From: Candidatus Poribacteria bacterium
GTDB lineage: Bacteria; Poribacteria; WGA-4E; PCPOR2b
Direction of reading: 5' to 3'
Assembly (NCBI GenBank): GCA_022822005.1
Contig: JAJECO010000063.1
Span: forward strand, 1-64,000
Length of the DNA stretch: 64,000 nucleotides
Shown here: positions 20,519-34,116 of the stretch, in pieces
Layout of the letters: each line of letters starts with the position of its first letter
Position numbering within the stretch: the stretch's first letter is position 1
The notes under the pieces: model-generated
The model's input: the letters and a program-made list of their open reading frames with translations, nothing else
Told to the model about the DNA's origin: nothing
Databases searched by the model: none
Program-made: the position numbers and the translations under genes

Positions 20519-21910
20519 CTACAGGTTGTAGCCTCGCTCGTTGTGCAGAGCAAGGTCTAAGCCTTCCTGCTCATCGTTGTACTTGACACGTAAACCAACG
20601 GCCCTGTCAACAACTTTGAGAATGATGAAGGAACCGATACCGCTCCAAAGTATGGTCACAACAAGACTGATAAACTGACTGCCAAGTTGTGCGCCGATAC
20701 TCTTATCCATCCCCATCCCACCTAATCCTTCCGCAGCGAATATACCGGTTAGCAAACAACCAACAATGCCGCCGATGCCGTGTACGCCGAAAGCATCAAG
20801 CGAATCGTCGTATCCCAGGCTATGCTTGAGGCTGGTTGCTCCCCAGAAGCAGATCGCGCCTGAGGCGAATCCGATAACCAACGCACCACCGGGTCCAACG
20901 CTACCGGAAGCTGGGGTAATTGCTACAAGCCCAGCAACTGCGCCGGTGACAATACCGAGGACACTCGGTTTCTTGTACTTAATCCACTCAATAAACATCC
21001 AAACCACGGCGGCGGTGCCGGTGGAGATTTGTGTGACTAACATCGCCATCCCTGCTGCGCCGTCGGCAGCCAACGCGCTACCAGCATTGAAACCGAACCA
21101 GCCGACCCAGAGCATGGAGGCACCAATGACTGTCAGCGTCAGGTTGTGAGGCGGCATCGGGATCTCAGGATAGCCGAGGCGTTTGCCAACCATTAGTGCG
21201 GCAACAAGCGCTGCAATGCCTGCGTTGACGTGCACCACAGTTCCGCCCGCAAAATCGAGCGCGCCCAAGATATCGCCAAAGTATGAGCCATCGCCTGCCC
21301 ACGCCATGTGACAGATTGGGGCGTACACAATTATAGACCAGATTCCCATGAACCAGAGCATGGCAGAGAATTTCATTCGTTCGGCGAAGGCGCCTGCGAT
21401 AAGTGCCGGTGTGATGATCGCGAAGGTCATCTGGAAGCAGATAAACACTGTTTCCGGGATAGTGCCGGATAAGCTATCCGCATTCACACCTTTGAGGAAA
21501 ACCTTGCCAAGCCCACCGAAAAATGAGTGGGCATTGGTCACTTTCATACTCATGCCGGTGGTATCGAAGGCGATACTGTAACCTATCACAATCCATATAA
21601 TGGTAATCAGTCCGGTCAGCGAAAAACACTGCATCAATAGCGACAGGACATTCTTGACACGCACCAGTCCGCCATAGAACAGGGCAAGACCGGGAATGGT
21701 CATGAACAGAACCAGCGCTGTTGCTGTGAGCAGCCAAGCGGTGTCGCCCGAATCGAGCGCGTCTTCAGCGAGAGCAAGGTTCGGGAGTGCTAAGAACATC
21801 AGTACCAGCAGCATTCCCAAAGCACTGCTGGCCCTACTGCGGCTTAGAAGCCTGCTAGGCTTTTTTCTATGCTTCTGAAACCTAAACACATTCTGTGGTT
21901 GTTGGTGCAT
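20519..21910 (-). CDS. amt: Ammonium transporter Amt (copy 1)
   Basis: A 463-residue ammonium channel of the Amt/MEP/Rh family. A cleavable-looking signal (LLVLMFLALPNLALAED) precedes eleven membrane spans. The twin-histidine pore is visible in GTVVHVNAGIAALV and DAFGVHGIGGIVG, and PxLAxxYGG-like (IPGLALFYGGLVR) and FNAGSALA segments are typical. It conducts ammonia/ammonium for nitrogen scavenging. The start is ATG at 21910 with GGAGGT four bases upstream; the ATG at 21922 is itself part of that ribosome-binding site. No GlnK gene is adjacent. It is separate from, and sequence-distinct from, amt2 at 32458. It has its own sigma-70-type promoter and shares a terminator with the convergent MBL-fold gene. 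Confidence 0.93.
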   Translation of the reverse strand: MHQQPQNVFRFQKHRKKPSRLLSRSRASSALGMLLVLMFLALPNLALAEDALDSGDTAWLLTATALVLFMTIPGLALFYGGLVRVKNVLSLLMQCFSLTGLITIIWIVIGYSIAFDTTGMSMKVTNAHSFFGGLGKVFLKGVNADSLSGTIPETVFICFQMTFAIITPALIAGAFAERMKFSAMLWFMGIWSIIVYAPICHMAWAGDGSYFGDILGALDFAGGTVVHVNAGIAALVAALMVGKRLGYPEIPMPPHNLTLTVIGASMLWVGWFGFNAGSALAADGAAGMAMLVTQISTGTAAVVWMFIEWIKYKKPSVLGIVTGAVAGLVAITPASGSVGPGGALVIGFASGAICFWGATSLKHSLGYDDSLDAFGVHGIGGIVGCLLTGIFAAEGLGGMGMDKSIGAQLGSQFISLVVTILWSGIGSFIILKVVDRAVGLRVKYNDEQEGLDLALHNERGYNL

Positions 21911-22098
21911 TTTGACCTCCATCTAAGTTTAGATGATCGTTACCTACCCCAATAAGATCTCCGATAAGTCGTCCAATAAATCGAGACTCGGGGCGAGACC
22001 AGGGTTCGTTCCCCCGTACCGAGGGCGGGCGAGACCAGGGGGGCAGGTGGGATTACGTTACGCGTGACTTGGAAACTGTTTCAAACTCCTCGTTAGGC

Positions 22099-27005: not shown

Positions 27006-28352
27006 TCAAACTACAGCTTCTTCCTTTAGCCTTGCCCGGTCGGCGAGCGCGGCTTCAAATGCCTTTTTCTCAGCTTCTTGAACTGCGGGCGAGAATCGGA
27101 CGAACACGCTGCAGAATGCTGCAAGCGTAACCATAACCCCAAGGTATAGCAATCCCTGTTGCGTTGTGATGTTGTCCGCACGGAAAAGGAAACCTGCGGC
27201 GACCGCTCCTGCGTTTCCTCCTGCGCCAACGAGTCCGGCTACTGCGCCTAAAGCCTTTTTGTTGATGAAAGGCACAATACCGTAGGTCGCGCCTTCCGAC
27301 ATCTGCACGAAGAAGCTGAAGACAATCATTGTGGCAACAGCGGCAGTCAAAACTCCCATCTGGGAGAAGAGTATAAGTGCGAGACCCTCGCCGAGGAGGG
27401 CGACGAATAGGAATAGAACACGCCCTCTCAACCCCATCTTTTTCGCGAACCGATCGGAAAACATACCACCCATGGTACGCGCGAAGATGTTCATCAAGCC
27501 GAACAGTCCGGCAATCAGTCCCGCTGTCTTTACGTCTAAGCCAAATCGGTCGTGATAGTAAAGCGCAGCGATATTGTTAATCGTCAATTCAACGCCGAAG
27601 CAGACTGCATAGATAATAAACAACGCCCAGACGCGGTAATCTTTAATTATGAGTATGAACGACTCGATGCCTTTTCTTTCAGTGGCAGGGAGTTCGCCCC
27701 GAGCGCGTAGCTCCTTGTAATCGCCGTCTGGCGCATCGCGTGTGACGACATAGTAAGCGATGCCGGTGAGAAACAGTGCTGCACCGGGGACAATCATTGC
27801 CAAACGCCAACCGAGAAATGTATCGACGCCCAAAGTGAGGAACGCGGTAAAAATCAGCGGCATAACCATCTGCGTCACACCACCACCTAAATTCCCCCAA
27901 CCGGCTGTTGTGGCATTTGCTGTGCCGATGACATTGGGGGCGAACATCACGGAGGTATGATACTGCGTAATGACGAATGACGCACCAATCGCACCAATCG
28001 CTAATCTGAAAAGCAGGAAACTTTCGTAACTCTTGGCGAGCCCAATCCCCATCACAGGGAGTGAGCCGATAAGCAACAGCCATGTGTACACCCGCCTTGA
28101 ACCGATCCGGTCGCAGAGCGGACCAATAAGAATCCGCACGAGCACGGTAATTGCAACTGAAGCGATGATGGTATTACCGATTTGGGCTTTGGTCAGCATC
28201 AGGTCTTCTCGGACGATTGCCATTAGGGGGGCGATTCCGAACCAGCCGAAAAAAGCTAAGAAGAATGCACCCCATGTCATGTGAAAGGCACGCATCTGTA
28301 CCGTTTTCAAACTGAATAGATTAATTCGTGTTGCCTTGTTATTGATGTCCAT
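27006..28352 (-). CDS. narK: Nitrate/nitrite MFS transporter, NarK type
   Basis: A 448-residue major-facilitator protein with about twelve membrane spans. The start region TWGAFFLAFFGWFGIAPLMAIVREDL, the loop GPLCDRIGSRR, and the nitrate-signature-like glycine-rich segments GWGNLGGGVTQ (helix 5) and AGLVGAGGNAGAVAAG (helix 11) mark it as a NarK/NrtP-type nitrate porter. It would import nitrate for reduction inside the cell, possibly with nitrite exchange. ATG at 28352 is chosen because GGAAGG precedes it; the longer frame would need a TTG start. It lies 44 bases after nirBD and directly before the 33-residue ORF in the same operon. The C-terminal 30 residues are cytoplasmic and charged. Confidence 0.92.
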   Translation of the reverse strand: MDINNKATRINLFSLKTVQMRAFHMTWGAFFLAFFGWFGIAPLMAIVREDLMLTKAQIGNTIIASVAITVLVRILIGPLCDRIGSRRVYTWLLLIGSLPVMGIGLAKSYESFLLFRLAIGAIGASFVITQYHTSVMFAPNVIGTANATTAGWGNLGGGVTQMVMPLIFTAFLTLGVDTFLGWRLAMIVPGAALFLTGIAYYVVTRDAPDGDYKELRARGELPATERKGIESFILIIKDYRVWALFIIYAVCFGVELTINNIAALYYHDRFGLDVKTAGLIAGLFGLMNIFARTMGGMFSDRFAKKMGLRGRVLFLFVALLGEGLALILFSQMGVLTAAVATMIVFSFFVQMSEGATYGIVPFINKKALGAVAGLVGAGGNAGAVAAGFLFRADNITTQQGLLYLGVMVTLAAFCSVFVRFSPAVQEAEKKAFEAALADRARLKEEAVV

Positions 28353-28396
28353 TAGGTATATTCCTTCCAATTTGAGCTTTTGTAGTCGAAGCAGTG

Positions 28397-31300
28397 CTAA
28401 GAATTCGATATATCGGATTCAGAAACATTTACACCCACTCGCTCCCTGATATAATCCAGCTGTCCATCAGGACGTTCCATCCGCAGGTAAGGCGTGGTTG
28501 GGGCTTTCGCTGCCCCTTTCTCAGGCCCTCTGGGCAACGCGCCGATATTGCAGAAGTTTTCGGTTGACAAAGTCGCATCGAGTTCATTTTGGGGTGGAAG
28601 CTCAAGGTAGACATCGTTGTCTTTGACTTTTACCGGGAAGGTGAGAACTTCGTAGTCCTCGCCGCTCAGACATGATCCCGATTTGAGGCAGAACGTCTTT
28701 TTGTGCAGTGGACAGGCGATTTTCGGCGTACCCTGTGCATCACCGATGATGCCGCGAGAGAGAACAAACGCCTTCTTGTGCGGACACATATTTTGCGTTG
28801 CGTACCACTCGCCACGAGAGGAGAAATTGAACACGGCAATCTGTGTGTTTCCATATTTAATTGCTGCGCCGCCGTCGTGGGGGAAGTCAGAAACGCTCCC
28901 GACTTTGACCCACTGTTTGTCTGGAGATTCGCGCAATGCTTTCAACTTTGCGCTTGAGGGTAAGGTTACATCTTCGATTGGAATGAGGTCCTTCTCCCAA
29001 TACTTTGGGCGTTGCTGTCCACGCTCCGAGACAAACTCGATGCCGGTTTCGGTCTCATCGGTGTTGATGAATTGTCGGAACTTATTCCGAATGTCCGGAT
29101 TCATGACCACCTCTCTCCACTCACATTTGTAGGTGTCAACGAGATGCGCCATCTGTCTCTCCAATTCATCGCAGATACCAAGTTTGTCGTGGACAATTAC
29201 GTTGCGAAGGTAATCAATGCCTCCCTCCATCTTTTCTAGCCAGACGGAGGTTCGCGTGAGCTTGTCAGCGGTCATGATGTAGAACATGATAAAGCAGTCG
29301 AGGTACTTAATGGCTGTCTCCTCATCAATGTCGCTTGCGAGTAGATCGGCGTGTCGCGGATTGGAACCACCGTTCCCGCAGACATAGAGGTTATAGCCCT
29401 GTTCGGTCGCGATCAATCCGAAATCCTTGCCCTGTGCCTCGGCGCATTCTCGGATGCAACCGGAAACAGCGGCTTTCATCTTATGTGGTGAACGAATGCC
29501 GCGGTAGCGTTCTTCGACCTGAATGGCGAACTTTACTGAGTCTTGGACAGCGTAGCGACACCATGTTGTACCGACACAACTCTTGACGGTCCGCAACGCC
29601 TTTCCGTAGGCATGACCGCTCTCGAAGCCCGCGTTGACCAGTTCTTCCCAAATGTCGGGCAGTTGGTGCAGCTGTGCGCCGAACATGTCGATGCGTTGTC
29701 CACCGGTAATCTTCGTGTAAAGCTCATATTTCTTAGCGATGGAACCGAGTGCGATGAGTTTATCGGGTGTAATTTCGCCGCCGGGGACACGTGGAATGAT
29801 AGAATAAAGACCACCACGCTGCATGTTCGCCAAGAAACGGTCATTGGTGTCCTGCAATGTTTGATGTTTGTCAAACATGATGTTCTCGTTCCACAGGCTC
29901 GCTAACATCGATGTGACGGCCGGTTTGCAAATTTCACAGCCGTTGCCATGTCCATACTCGGTGATGAGGCTGTCGAAAGTTTTGATCTGCTTAACTTTGA
30001 TAATATCGAATAGTTCCTGACGGGTGTAAGGGAAGTGTTCGCACAGATCCGTATTGATTTCTAATCCCGCTGCCTCCAATTCCTGTTTGAGTAGGTCAGT
30101 CACGAGCGGTACGCAGCCACCGCAGCCCGTGCCCGCTTTCGTGAAGCTCTTTACTTCCCCGACAGTTGTCAATTCGTTGTCACGAATTGCACAGCAGATA
30201 TCGCCCTTGCTGACGCTATTACACTGACAGACTTGTGCTTGATCGGGCATCTCCGTGGCGGATACGACGACACCGTCGCCGCTTGAACCGAGCACCAACG
30301 CCCCCGGTTCTGCTGTCAATTCGGTTTCATTCTGTGAGAGCATCATGAGGCTCCCGTAATCGGAAGCGTCACCGACCAAAATGCCGCCGACCAACTTTTT
30401 CCCGTCTGGGGTAAAGAGAAGTTTTTTGTAGATACCGCCGAAGGGATCTTCATAGGTGAGTGGTTTGGCGGTGGATTCATCCGCGGTATAGTCCCCGAAA
30501 CTGGCCACATCAACGCCCATCAGCTTGAGTTTTGTCGACAGATCGGCGCCGGTAAAGGTTCGTGCCCCATCGCCGGTCAGGCGTGCGGCGAGGATTTCTG
30601 CCATTTCATACCCCGGTGCGACGAGACCGTAAATCATCCCGCCGTGCAAGGCGACTTCACCGATAGCGTAGATGTCCGAGTCGTCGGTCTGCAAACAATC
30701 ATTTATGACGACGCCACCCCGTTCGTGGACTTCGATCCCGCACTCGCGCGCAAGTTCATCGCGGGGGCGGATGCCGGCAGAGACAATGACCATTCCAACA
30801 TCAATCGCTTCACCGCTGTTGAATACCATACCCTCAACTTTACTGTTACCGATAATCTCTTTGGTCGCTGTCTCGACATGGACATGAACGCCGAGCTCCT
30901 CAATTTTCTTGATGAGAAGATTGGAACCAGCTTCATCCACCTGTCGAGGCATCAAACCGGGCATGAATTCGACAACATGTGTTTTGAGACCAAGGTCGTA
31001 GGCAGCTTTTGCCGCTTCCAAGCCGAGCAATCCTCCACCAATAACGGCTGCCGCTTCGACCCTCTGTGCATAGTCGAGAATTCCTTGAAGATCCTCAATG
31101 GTCCTGTAGACGAAGACACCGTCTTTATCGACACCCGGAATTGGCGGCACAAAAGGATAGGAGCCGGTCGCAAGTACGACGATGTCGTAGGGGATTTCCT
31201 TCCCGTTTTCTGATCGGACGACTCGCAGCTCGCGGTCGATGGCAGTTGCTTTATCACCCACATGGAGCGAAATACCTTGCGCTTCGTACCACTGGGTGTT

Positions 31301-31522
31301 TGTGAGCATCAGTTGTTCAGGGTCACGATTCGTAAAGAATTGGGTGAGACCGACGCGGTCGTAAGCTGCACGAGGTTCTTCACAGAACGTCACAATCTGA
31401 AACTTGCGATCAACATCAAACTCGACTAACTTTTCGCAGAACCGATGTCCGACCATGCCGTTTCCGATAACAACAACTGTGTTCAGGGCGCTCGTTTTTC
31501 TGGTAAAATTTGAATCGTTCAT
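28397..31522 (-). CDS. nirB: Assimilatory nitrite reductase, NirB-NirD fusion
   Basis: A 1041-residue NAD(P)H-dependent nitrite reductase with the small subunit fused at the C-terminus. Order: FAD domain (VVVIGNGMVGHRF, residues 16-28), NAD-binding part (VIGGGLLGLEAAKAA), BFD-like [2Fe-2S] region (CQCNSVSKGDICC...GTGCGGC), and the siroheme/[4Fe-4S] reductase with KSCVGTTWCRYAV and SGCIRECAEAQ providing the four Cys. A Rieske-type NirD domain follows, with CPHK and CPLHKK ligands. It reduces nitrite to ammonium in the cytoplasm. ATG at 31522 is used; the longer frame would start inside the leader terminator. It is preceded by an ANTAR-type antitermination leader and follows nasT. Usual NirB plus NirD lengths add up to this size. 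Confidence 0.93.
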   Translation of the reverse strand: MNDSNFTRKTSALNTVVVIGNGMVGHRFCEKLVEFDVDRKFQIVTFCEEPRAAYDRVGLTQFFTNRDPEQLMLTNTQWYEAQGISLHVGDKATAIDRELRVVRSENGKEIPYDIVVLATGSYPFVPPIPGVDKDGVFVYRTIEDLQGILDYAQRVEAAAVIGGGLLGLEAAKAAYDLGLKTHVVEFMPGLMPRQVDEAGSNLLIKKIEELGVHVHVETATKEIIGNSKVEGMVFNSGEAIDVGMVIVSAGIRPRDELARECGIEVHERGGVVINDCLQTDDSDIYAIGEVALHGGMIYGLVAPGYEMAEILAARLTGDGARTFTGADLSTKLKLMGVDVASFGDYTADESTAKPLTYEDPFGGIYKKLLFTPDGKKLVGGILVGDASDYGSLMMLSQNETELTAEPGALVLGSSGDGVVVSATEMPDQAQVCQCNSVSKGDICCAIRDNELTTVGEVKSFTKAGTGCGGCVPLVTDLLKQELEAAGLEINTDLCEHFPYTRQELFDIIKVKQIKTFDSLITEYGHGNGCEICKPAVTSMLASLWNENIMFDKHQTLQDTNDRFLANMQRGGLYSIIPRVPGGEITPDKLIALGSIAKKYELYTKITGGQRIDMFGAQLHQLPDIWEELVNAGFESGHAYGKALRTVKSCVGTTWCRYAVQDSVKFAIQVEERYRGIRSPHKMKAAVSGCIRECAEAQGKDFGLIATEQGYNLYVCGNGGSNPRHADLLASDIDEETAIKYLDCFIMFYIMTADKLTRTSVWLEKMEGGIDYLRNVIVHDKLGICDELERQMAHLVDTYKCEWREVVMNPDIRNKFRQFINTDETETGIEFVSERGQQRPKYWEKDLIPIEDVTLPSSAKLKALRESPDKQWVKVGSVSDFPHDGGAAIKYGNTQIAVFNFSSRGEWYATQNMCPHKKAFVLSRGIIGDAQGTPKIACPLHKKTFCLKSGSCLSGEDYEVLTFPVKVKDNDVYLELPPQNELDATLSTENFCNIGALPRGPEKGAAKAPTTPYLRMERPDGQLDYIRERVGVNVSESDISNS

Positions 31523-31542
31523 GTTCTGTAGGATCCTTCTCC

Positions 31543-31588
31543 AAAAAAAAGCGTCCATTCGTGATCGGTTTTGGTCACAAATGGACGC
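31543..31588 (-). terminator. Leader terminator (attenuator) of nirBD
   Basis: Arms 31551-31564 and 31575-31588 pair almost perfectly, with AATGGACGC as the 3' arm on the transcript. Eight U follow (31550-31543), only about 20 bases before the nirBD start. Its 5' arm shares GGCGTCC with the upstream AAAGGC hairpin, so the two structures exclude each other. Confidence 0.88.
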
Positions 31589-31622
31589 CTTTGTCCGTTA
31601 TCCCGCCATCTTTGGCTTGGAA
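31583..31622 (-). promoter_or_regulatory. ANTAR-target RNA hairpins P1 and P2 in the nirBD leader
   Basis: P2: GGAC-AAAGGC-GTCC (31596-31583) is a perfect stem with a six-base loop having A at position 1 and G at position 4. P1: GCC-AAAGAT-GGC (31616-31605), extendable to about 31622-31601 with a small bulge, also has an A1/G4 hexaloop. Paired hexaloop hairpins with the second overlapping a terminator are the recognised target of NasT/AmiR-type ANTAR proteins. Binding would prevent terminator formation. Confidence 0.82.
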
Positions 31623-31681
31623 TCTTTAGTTTTTATCTTTACTTCATCGCGGCGGATTAGTTCGCCATTGAACGATTACGC

Positions 31682-32281
31682 CTATCTGTTTTTCAATACT
31701 TCTGTGATTGAAAGTACATCCTGGGCAACTTCTGCCATACGTTTCTTCCTGTCCATTGCCATTTTCTGTAACAACCGATACGCTTCCGCTTCCGTGCAGC
31801 CTCGCTGTTCCATAACGACTCCCTTAGCACGTTCAATAACCTTGCGTTCGGCGAGGCTCGTTTTGGTTTTTTCTAACTCTTGTGCCAACGCTTGAAACTC
31901 ACGAAAACGGGCGATGGCAGCTTCGATGATTGGCTGAATGCGTTCGGGACTGAGGCCATTGACCACATAGGCGGAAACGCCTGCCTGAGTCGCTGCATGA
32001 ATGCTTTCTGAGCGATTGTCTCGTGTAAACATGACGATTGGCACCGACTGCTTTTGGCTAATTGTTGCAACATCAGTCAGCATATGCTGACTTGGAACAT
32101 CTGCGCCAATAAGAATGACATCGGGTTTCACCGTTTCCGCCCGTGGAAGCAAATCTGTGACTGATGCAGTGTGCGCTGCTACGGTGTACTCGCTTGCTTC
32201 CAGCGCCTGAACTAGCATGTTCGCTCGCTCTGTATCGTCATCAAAAATTAGGATACGTGATAGAGAAGTCGTGTTGCTCAT
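31682..32281 (-). CDS. nasT: NasT-like ANTAR-domain antitermination regulator
   Basis: A 199-residue two-domain regulator. The N-terminal half is a receiver-like domain (RILIFDDDTERANMLVQALEAS) in which Asp61 of VILIGADVPSQ stands where the phosphoacceptor is expected, though the surroundings are atypical. The C-terminal half is a clear ANTAR RNA-binding domain: LAERKVIERAKGVVMEQRG then CTEAEAYRLLQKMAMDRKK. By family knowledge it binds tandem hexaloop hairpins and lets RNA polymerase pass a terminator. Such hairpins are seen before nirBD and before nasT itself. ATG at 32281 has AAAGG seven bases upstream; an ATG at 32305 has none. NasT is normally held inactive by the nitrate sensor NasS, which is absent here. 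Confidence 0.9.
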   Translation of the reverse strand: MSNTTSLSRILIFDDDTERANMLVQALEASEYTVAAHTASVTDLLPRAETVKPDVILIGADVPSQHMLTDVATISQKQSVPIVMFTRDNRSESIHAATQAGVSAYVVNGLSPERIQPIIEAAIARFREFQALAQELEKTKTSLAERKVIERAKGVVMEQRGCTEAEAYRLLQKMAMDRKKRMAEVAQDVLSITEVLKNR

Positions 32282-32324
32282 CCTCGAACCTTTTATCTTG
32301 TCCATTTAAAGCAACATCTCAGGT

Positions 32325-32371
32325 AAAAAAAAGCGCCCATCTGTAGGAGCACGCCCCTATCAAATGGACGC
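32325..32371 (-). terminator. Leader terminator (attenuator) of nasT
   Basis: GGCGTCCAT pairs with ATGGGCGC (arms about 32371-32364 and 32340-32333, one U-G pair), with inner pairing ATAGGGG/CTCCTA. A run of U (32332-32325) follows. It closely resembles the nirBD attenuator and lies about 45 bases upstream of the nasT start. Confidence 0.82.
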
Positions 32372-32449
32372 CTTTGTCCACAAGGAGGAACTAATGAATT
32401 ATTGTATCTCTGTAGGCGTTCAGATGTAGAGCTTTTACCTGAACGCCTA
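32365..32449 (-). promoter_or_regulatory. ANTAR-target RNA hairpins in the nasT leader
   Basis: P2: TGGAC-AAAGGC-GTCCA (32380-32365), same core and loop as in the nirBD leader, overlapping the terminator 5' arm. P1: a long stem TAGGCGTTCAG/CTGAACGCCTA (32449-32413) capped by GTA-AAAGCTC-TAC, again presenting AAAG. It begins nine bases after the amt2 stop, so it lies on read-through mRNA from amt2. Confidence 0.75.
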
Positions 32450-32457
32450 TCCATGTT

Positions 32458-33825
32458 CTAGTTAATAGAAGATATTGTAAAATCTGGATACGCACTGGAA
32501 CCGTGCTCGGCGTAATCCAATCCTTCCAGCTCTTCTTCTTCGCTAGCACGCAACCCAACAATCGTTTTGATACCGTAAAACAGAATAAAACCTGCTACCA
32601 TACACCATGCAAAAACGGCAACAACACCAATGAACTGAGCACCGAGGAACTTGAACGCTGCGCCTTTATCCGCTGCGTAGAAGATGCCTTGTTCGGTATG
32701 GAAGACCCCAAGCAAGAGCGTCCCCAAAGCGCCGCAAACGCCGTGTACAGAGATCGCGCCGACCGGATCGTCAATTCTGAGTTTTTCAATTATCAGGACC
32801 GAAAAGACGACCACAACCCCTGCGATTGCACCAATAATTACTGCAGCCACCGGTGTAACAAATGCACACGGTGCAGTGATTGCAACGAGTCCGGCAAGCG
32901 CGCCGTTGAGTGCCATGCCGGCATCGGGTTTCTTGAGTTTGAACCAGGCAGTTATCATGGCTAAAATTGCGCCCGCTGCGGCAGCGAGGTTTGTCGTTAC
33001 AGCGATTAATGCAATGGGTTTTGCATCTGCTGCCATCTGGCTGCCCGGATTAAATCCGAACCACCCAAGCCATAGGATAAAGACACCGAGTGCTGCCAGC
33101 GGCAGATTATGTCCGGGAATCGGACGAGGGTTCCCATTTGCGTCATATTTGCCGGTACGAGCACCGAGTACGATTGCGCCTGTTAAGGCGAGCCAGCCAC
33201 CCGTTGAGTGGACAACCGTTGAGCCTGCAAAATCCAACATTCCCAGACTCGACAACCAACCGCCTCCCCAGATCCAGTGTCCGACGATTGGATAGATTAA
33301 ACCGGTAATGAAAACACTATAAATCAGATAGCTTCTAAACTTTGTGCGTTCAGCCATCGCACCGGAAACAATTGTCGCTGCGGTGGCAGCGAAGACCAGT
33401 TGGAACAACCATGCAGCGAGTGTTGGGACGGAACTCCACTCCAGTGAGCTGAACCCTTTCGTCTCCCCTGAGACGAACCACCCACTCAATCCCATGAAGC
33501 CGTTACCATCACCAAACATAATTGCGAATCCAATCGCCCAGTAAGCGATAGCTCCCATCGAGAAATCCATTAGGTTTTTCATCAGGATATTGACGGCATT
33601 TTTCGCACGGGTAAATCCCGCTTCGACCATGGAGAAACCTGCCTGCATAAAGAAAACCAGAAAGGCGGCAATCAATACCCAGAGGGTGTCAGCGATATAT
33701 TTTGAAGTTTCGATTTTTTCACCTTCGACGAAGCCATCTAAGGCGAATACGTTTGTACCGAGACATAGCGTCAAGATCAGAACAATTCCTGCAATCCCGT
33801 AATTGCTCAGAAAGCTTTTTTTCAT
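32458..33825 (-). CDS. amt: Ammonium transporter Amt (copy 2), first gene of the nitrate operon
   Basis: A 455-residue Amt-family ammonium channel with an N-terminal signal-like segment (GIAGIVLILTLCLGTNVFALDG) and eleven spans. The pore histidines are in GSTVVHSTGGWLALTGA and GAISVHGVCGALGTLLLG; FFMQAGFSMVEAGFTRAKN is the family's N-terminal signature. It is clearly different in sequence from amt1 (VEAGF versus LALFYGG type), so the two are not recent duplicates. It is transcribed first, ahead of nasT and nirBD, with a sigma-54-type promoter about 140 bases upstream of the start, as expected for nitrogen-limitation control. No GlnK/GlnB gene is adjacent. Confidence 0.93.
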   Translation of the reverse strand: MKKSFLSNYGIAGIVLILTLCLGTNVFALDGFVEGEKIETSKYIADTLWVLIAAFLVFFMQAGFSMVEAGFTRAKNAVNILMKNLMDFSMGAIAYWAIGFAIMFGDGNGFMGLSGWFVSGETKGFSSLEWSSVPTLAAWLFQLVFAATAATIVSGAMAERTKFRSYLIYSVFITGLIYPIVGHWIWGGGWLSSLGMLDFAGSTVVHSTGGWLALTGAIVLGARTGKYDANGNPRPIPGHNLPLAALGVFILWLGWFGFNPGSQMAADAKPIALIAVTTNLAAAAGAILAMITAWFKLKKPDAGMALNGALAGLVAITAPCAFVTPVAAVIIGAIAGVVVVFSVLIIEKLRIDDPVGAISVHGVCGALGTLLLGVFHTEQGIFYAADKGAAFKFLGAQFIGVVAVFAWCMVAGFILFYGIKTIVGLRASEEEELEGLDYAEHGSSAYPDFTISSIN

Positions 33826-33965: not shown

Positions 33966-33981
33966 GGCAAAAAAGATGCCA
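33966..33981 (-). promoter_or_regulatory. Sigma-54 (-24/-12) promoter of amt2
   Basis: TGGCATCTTTTTTGCC on the minus strand has GG and GC separated by exactly ten bases. This matches the TGGCAC-N5-TTGC consensus well. Transcription would start near 33955, leaving a leader of about 130 bases. Confidence 0.7.
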
Positions 33982-34116
33982 GCAGTTAATGGGAGTGTCT
34001 TTTGCGGCTGGAGAAACGACTGAAAGACAGCAGCAGTGGGATGATAGCTGAATCTTTTAAGATTATTGGCTGCGCTATATTCATCGCAGAAAGGTGATAT
34101 AATTTTCGGCAATTTG

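Follow-up and report, generated by a model that had tools for sequence, protein, structure and literature searches.

The leader in front of the fused nitrite reductase gene nirBD in this poribacterial genome is strongly supported as a predicted ANTAR/NasT antiterminator element, on the grounds of a covariance model, covariation, and its conservation, across the order, in the interval from nasT to the nitrite reductase gene. This switch (leader 2) is the known NasT/ANTAR system's version in a new phylum. The parts that depart from the known NasT system are an incomplete leader before nasT (leader 1) and P0, a third hexaloop just behind the nasT stop codon. The window, i.e., the whole stretch of 64,000 nucleotides analysed, belongs to contig C66; the genome measures 6.0 Mb and is 97.8% complete. 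The order of genes on its minus strand is amt, nasT, fused nirBD, a NarK-family transporter gene, a gene for an Fe-S/DmsC-like protein, a molybdopterin reductase gene, and a second amt (Table 1). The two amt genes flanking the nitrate unit differ: for the one at 32458-33825, the general amt and marine-subtype models give the best scores, and for the one at 20519-21922 (minus strand), the AmtB model does. For comparison, we used nasT-centred stretches of at most 20 kb each from 42 relatives, which make 43 loci with the window; one relative, a Candidatus Poribacteria MAG, has a NasT 94% identical to that of the window. In the representatives examined gene by gene, nasT is followed by a ferredoxin-type nitrite reductase-like gene, narK, and a nasA-like gene, named from position and size except for narK, which matched the window's narK.

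Table 1. Positions of the regulatory features and genes of the nitrate unit in the window
Feature	Positions	Strand	Remarks
sigma54-type promoter-like site CTGGCATCTTTTTTGCC (GG-N10-GC), upstream of amt	33966..33982	-	identical in G000, G003, G005
amt, ammonium transporter	32458..33825	-	PF00909 436 bits; TIGR00836 above cut-off
Long hairpin, the 'AAAG loop' of the earlier note; not an A1/G4 hexaloop	32413..32449	-	stem kept, loop not
GUUCCU, 5' strand of possible outer helix under leader 1 P2	32386..32391	-	pairs with AGGGGC 32353-32358
Leader 1 P2 hexaloop hairpin GTGGAC-AAAGGC-GTCCAT	32364..32381	-	identical in three genomes
Leader 1 intrinsic terminator overlapping P2, T8 tract 32332-32325	32325..32373	-	fold -35.5 kcal/mol for 77 nt, z -5.1
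nasT, degenerate receiver + ANTAR domain	31682..32284 (ORF start possible at 32305)	-	PF03861 78.7 bits
P0, third A1/G4 hexaloop hairpin GTTC-AATGGC-GAAC, just 3' of nasT stop codon	31660..31673	-	
Leader 2 P1 hexaloop hairpin GCC-AAAGAT-GGC	31605..31616	-	
Leader 2 P2 hexaloop hairpin GGAC-AAAGGC-GTCC	31583..31596	-	
Leader 2 intrinsic terminator overlapping P2, T8 tract 31550-31543	31543..31591	-	fold -29.5 kcal/mol for 71 nt, z -5.1
nirBD, fused large + small subunits of assimilatory nitrite reductase	28397..31558 (from first ATG; true start probably 31522)	-	TIGR02374 1062.5 bits, TIGR02378 124.3 bits, both above cut-off
NarK-family nitrate/nitrite transporter	27006..28370	-	TIGR00886 311.3 bits, slightly under cut-off 311.7

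The hairpin GGAC-AAAGGC-GTCC, an A1/G4 hexaloop overlapping a U-tailed terminator, had previously been placed before both nirBD and nasT, and it is present at both sites (31583-31596 and 32366-32379, minus strand) with a T8 tract after each. In both leaders, the 3' strand of the hexaloop hairpin forms part of a strong U-tailed terminator, and folding is well beyond that of shuffles (z about -5 to -6). The stretch GGACANNGGYGTCC has three copies in the whole 6.0-Mb genome, two in these leaders and one within a coding region, the latter being rejected as a further ANTAR leader for that location. Leader 2 carries A1 and G4 in both P1 and P2; the linker between the two core hairpins is 8 nt (31604-31597), and P2 and the terminator are mutually exclusive.

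A P2 of the form RGACA-NN-GG-Y-GTCY with its terminator lies directly 3' of nasT and before the nitrite reductase gene in all 43 Poribacteria loci; the search pattern had A1 and G4 preset, and no locus failed it. P1 is found about 8 nt 5' of P2 across the loci, with G4 in 43 of 43 and A1 in about 37. Seven loci (L039, L043, L045, L050, L056, L058, and L059) contain, in the 3' arm of P1, an insert of about 40 nt that forms a hairpin of its own. This insertion explains an apparent loss of P1 in these relatives, which was rejected: the outer strand of P1 is kept and the hexaloop persists, loop position 1 being G in four of the seven. Pair counts and a covariance model were based on the leaders of 28 relatives, a set that leaves out the window and the two relatives closest to it. 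Paired cells amounted to 96%, against 18-52% in slid controls, and five pairs had changed on both sides. With the relatives-only model, leader 2 reaches 32.1 bits; its E-value is 2.5e-9 within the window and 2.4e-7 genome-wide, where it is the top match. The Rfam check proposed in the earlier note gave no match in the window at gathering thresholds. The next-best match of covariance model R1 in the own genome (C73:41402) was rejected as an ANTAR leader, having no P2 hexaloop, as were matches of 20-27 bits in G019, G020, and G030, which are lone P1-like hairpins or without a proper dual motif. A match of 22.6 bits away from nasT in another genome (G026:C1:1138453-1138503, L106) has both hexaloops, CCAACGUUGG and GACAGAGGUGUC, and is a possible further ANTAR target.

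NasT is a receiver plus ANTAR protein, as in the NasS-NasT system, and no other ANTAR protein was found in the genome; the clear ANTAR domain attributed to it earlier is borne out by the Pfam match. When its alignment was mapped onto the residue numbering of PMC8934654, the main EutV RNA contacts R142, K149, E160, Y164, M172, and R177 were kept, with Gln in place of R168 and Arg in place of K147. Classically, NasS holds NasT until nitrate or nitrite frees it (PMC3795266). A search for NasS (NMT1_2 family) gave no match in the own genome, and only partial matches of 40 residues in 5 of 17 relatives. A NIT-domain search of the genome gave no match and is uninformative, as its control matched nowhere either. 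Furthermore, the receiver does not have the acceptor Asp and Lys of a phosphorylation-activated response regulator: the Asp is Gly here and is found in none of the 43 proteins, and the conserved Lys is lost. The ordinary NasT assumed in the earlier note does not fit these observations. Judging from its sequence, the protein appears to operate without NasS and without receiver phosphorylation; its signal could be the amount of NasT itself, or a ligand or partner of the pseudo-receiver.

In Paracoccus denitrificans, NasT binds the leader RNA, and a mutated hairpin abolishes growth on nitrate; its nasTS-leader-nasABGHC arrangement likewise has nasT directly 5' of a hairpin leader before nitrate/nitrite assimilation genes (PMC3795266, PMC5424462). 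Unlike in Paracoccus, no NasS was found in the genome, the receiver is without phospho-Asp, a third hexaloop is present, and three Poribacteria species have an extra one-hexaloop terminator before nasT. The eut leaders of Enterococcus faecalis and their regulator EutV share the receiver plus ANTAR architecture, the dual A1/G4 hexaloops, and the P2 overlapping a terminator, but EutV is activated through phosphorylation by EutW, for which the window NasT has no acceptor Asp (PMC3369931, PMC8934654). EutV can bind single hexaloops, and antitermination requires both at close spacing, naturally 5-12 nt in eut; 14 nt or an additional 20 nt impairs or abolishes it (PMC8934654, PMC3369931). In Bradyrhizobium diazoefficiens, NasT-interaction hairpins have been predicted in the leader of nirA, comparable to the hairpins before the nitrite reductase gene of our relatives; its NasT works with NasS and has many more target genes (PMC6759348), in contrast to the genome search here, which found these leaders only.

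Leader 1 is, as far as its sequence tells, a real and selected terminator with one NasT-type hexaloop, incomplete and holding half of the usual parts. It is confined to G000, G003, and G005, each of which has amt upstream; in the other 40 loci, no P2/terminator precedes nasT. Among the three genomes, the P2 and terminator show one or two differences in 56 positions, compared with 19 of 76 positions (25%) differing from G005 in the upstream flank and about 30% of the 4-fold sites in nasT and amt. Conservation so far above the flanks and 4-fold sites indicates that leader 1 is under purifying selection. The loop and stem of its P2 are those of leader 2, while the P2 loops of relatives vary. The second upstream AAAG-loop hairpin expected in each leader stands before nirBD (gcc-AAAGAT-ggc, 31616-31605) and fails before nasT, where a scan of the three genomes found no A1/G4 hexaloop with a stem of at least 3 bp within 170 nt 5' of P2. 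The relatives-only covariance model matched its P2 alone (15.2 bits, E=0.24 genome-wide). Since P1 is missing and EutV antitermination needs both hexaloops (PMC8934654, PMC3369931), we do not class leader 1 as a dual-hexaloop member, and the claim that NasT acts there on paired hexaloops falls. It is possible that leader 1 acts like a dual-hexaloop antiterminator despite the missing P1. Autoregulation of NasT through leader 1, the circuit that the earlier note drew, is plausible; the selected P2/terminator speaks for it, and the missing P1 and the restriction to three species speak against it. Separately, AAAUGGAC at the first possible nasT start codon (32297-32304) is complementary to GUCCAUUU (32362-32369, minus strand) in the leader 1 P2/terminator; this complementarity is kept in all three genomes and is perhaps due to chance.

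Leader 1 could instead work between amt and nasT as an ordinary intrinsic terminator or attenuator on which NasT does not act. Its P2-like top would then be left over from a partial duplication of leader 2, and leaky read-through or a weak internal promoter would supply nasT. We regard this as a considerable possibility that falls somewhat short of even. The missing P1 fits it, as does the stretch GGACAAAGGCGTCCATTTG, which both leaders share and which runs beyond the P2 stem in the manner of a duplication. A weak sigma70-like match at 32430-32401 could serve as the internal promoter; however, such matches are in the chance range (6 found, 3.5 expected), and in G005 the -10 element is lost. 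Moreover, the 5' strand of P2, GTGGAC, is dispensable for the core terminator and is nevertheless invariant in the three genomes, despite the 25% difference in the flank.

A doubtful reading at the other end is that an orphan ANTAR antiterminator sets the operon by its own amount, without NasS or receiver phosphorylation: a single-hexaloop leader 1 with an outer helix under P2 would provide positive feedback, and P0, where the nasT coding part of the message ends, would be a site of loading or titration. In leader 1 transcripts ending before the 3' arm of the terminator, the minimum-energy fold seats P2 on a GUUCCU/AGGGGC outer helix, which might stand in for P1. This predicted helix is without covariation and is weaker in G005. 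If this amount-control reading were true, the two-hexaloop rule for ANTAR antitermination would be broken.

P0 takes the general form GTTC-AANGNN-GAAC and lies between the nasT stop codon and P1 in the window and in most of the loci L032-L073. Counting A1/G4 loops on Watson-Crick stems of at least 4 bp, such a hexaloop is found in 32 of 43 loci, compared with 1.4 expected from dinucleotide shuffles. To our knowledge, a third hexaloop of this type is not part of the known ANTAR models. A1, A2, and G4 of the loop are nearly invariant (A2 in 34 of 38, G4 in 35 of 38), positions 3 and 5 vary, and the end of the stem changes from GC to AU among loci. The P0 pair counts are weaker support than those of P1/P2, as they depend mainly on a single base pair or two, and the covariation score of one slid control is about as high. 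The distance from P0 to P2 varies from 61 to 247 nt across loci; therefore, P0 is probably an independent, predicted NasT site.

Rfam RF00625 (Pseudomonas P11 RNA), which we take to be a nirBD/NasT leader, has the same order of hexaloop hairpins followed by a terminator. Its CUUC-AACGAU-GAAG resembles P0 and its GGAC-AAAGGC-GUCC equals P2 of the window; unlike leader 2, it has no counterpart of P1. The model scores 13.9 bits in the window and 28.5 bits in G056, both far below the gathering threshold of 70. Matches to P11 in two Nevskia genomes were at chance level (E 0.4-0.9) and were rejected. Alternatively, P0 could be a DNA operator (TTCA-N4-TGAA) at which a transcription factor binds, close to a promoter for the nitrite reductase operon, which we consider unlikely. 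Its TTCA/TGAA arms are symmetric, and some loci have the full palindrome TTCAACGTTGAA. The loop is not symmetric, since A2 and G4 are nearly invariant and positions 5 and 3, their counterparts in a palindrome, vary. Together with the GC-to-AU switch at the stem end, this asymmetry fits an RNA better than a DNA palindrome. In addition, no locus has a good sigma54-type site in the interval from nasT to P2, and in G056 the first and second hexaloops of the P11 model fall on P0 and P2, respectively, albeit below the cut-off (E=0.016).

That both leaders are complete dual-hexaloop ANTAR elements, P1 of leader 1 being supplied by the long hairpin at 32449-32413 (the model of the earlier note), is highly improbable: the hairpin persists in all three genomes, its stem showing a change from G-C to A-U, and has GUUC/GAAC in common with P0, but it was rejected because its loop is no hexaloop (11 nt in the minimum-energy fold, at best the 7-nt AAAGCUC closed by GUA/UAC) and is GAGGCUA in G005, with A1 lost, and its 3' end lies about 30 nt ahead of P2, as against the 5-12 nt natural in eut (PMC3369931, PMC8934654).

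The sigma54-type site upstream of amt scores 10/13, which is not significant alone, as 12 such sites occur per 64 kb on both strands. In 39 of 40 relatives, a sigma54-type site TTGGCA...TTGCT is found upstream of nasT, the fortieth locus being cut by the contig end. The near-consensus form in L034-L073 is TTGGCA[A/C/T]NNNNNTTGC[T/A], usually 65-170 nt before nasT. At a score of at least 12/13, both strands of these loci (1.6 Mb) contain only 36 sites, the majority being those upstream of nasT. In the three amt-nasT genomes, the site is weaker and located upstream of amt. Between nasT and P2, no locus has a site comparable in quality to those upstream of nasT. From this placement and the presence of RpoN in the genome, we infer that a single nitrogen-controlled promoter seems to drive transcription of the operon through the leaders.

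Our preferred reading, which we consider probable as a whole, is a nitrogen-controlled unit of amt, leader 1, nasT, leader 2, nirBD, narK, and the reductase genes. Transcription would probably start at the sigma54-type promoter upstream of amt under nitrogen shortage. NasT would then act on the P1 and P2 hexaloops of leader 2 and block the terminator, so that polymerase could proceed into nirBD, the transporter gene, and the reductase genes. Leader 1 would limit nasT expression, and partial relief by NasT through the single hexaloop would amount to positive feedback; this last step is much less certain than the rest of the model, the case for and against being about evenly balanced.

In the literature searched, we found no earlier report of NasT/ANTAR antitermination in the Poribacteria phylum. 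Our analysis would extend this mode of control to an uncultured phylum, in which an ANTAR regulator is retained across an order without the usual sensor or phosphorylation site. Leader 1 may serve as a natural test case of whether one hexaloop can suffice for antitermination.
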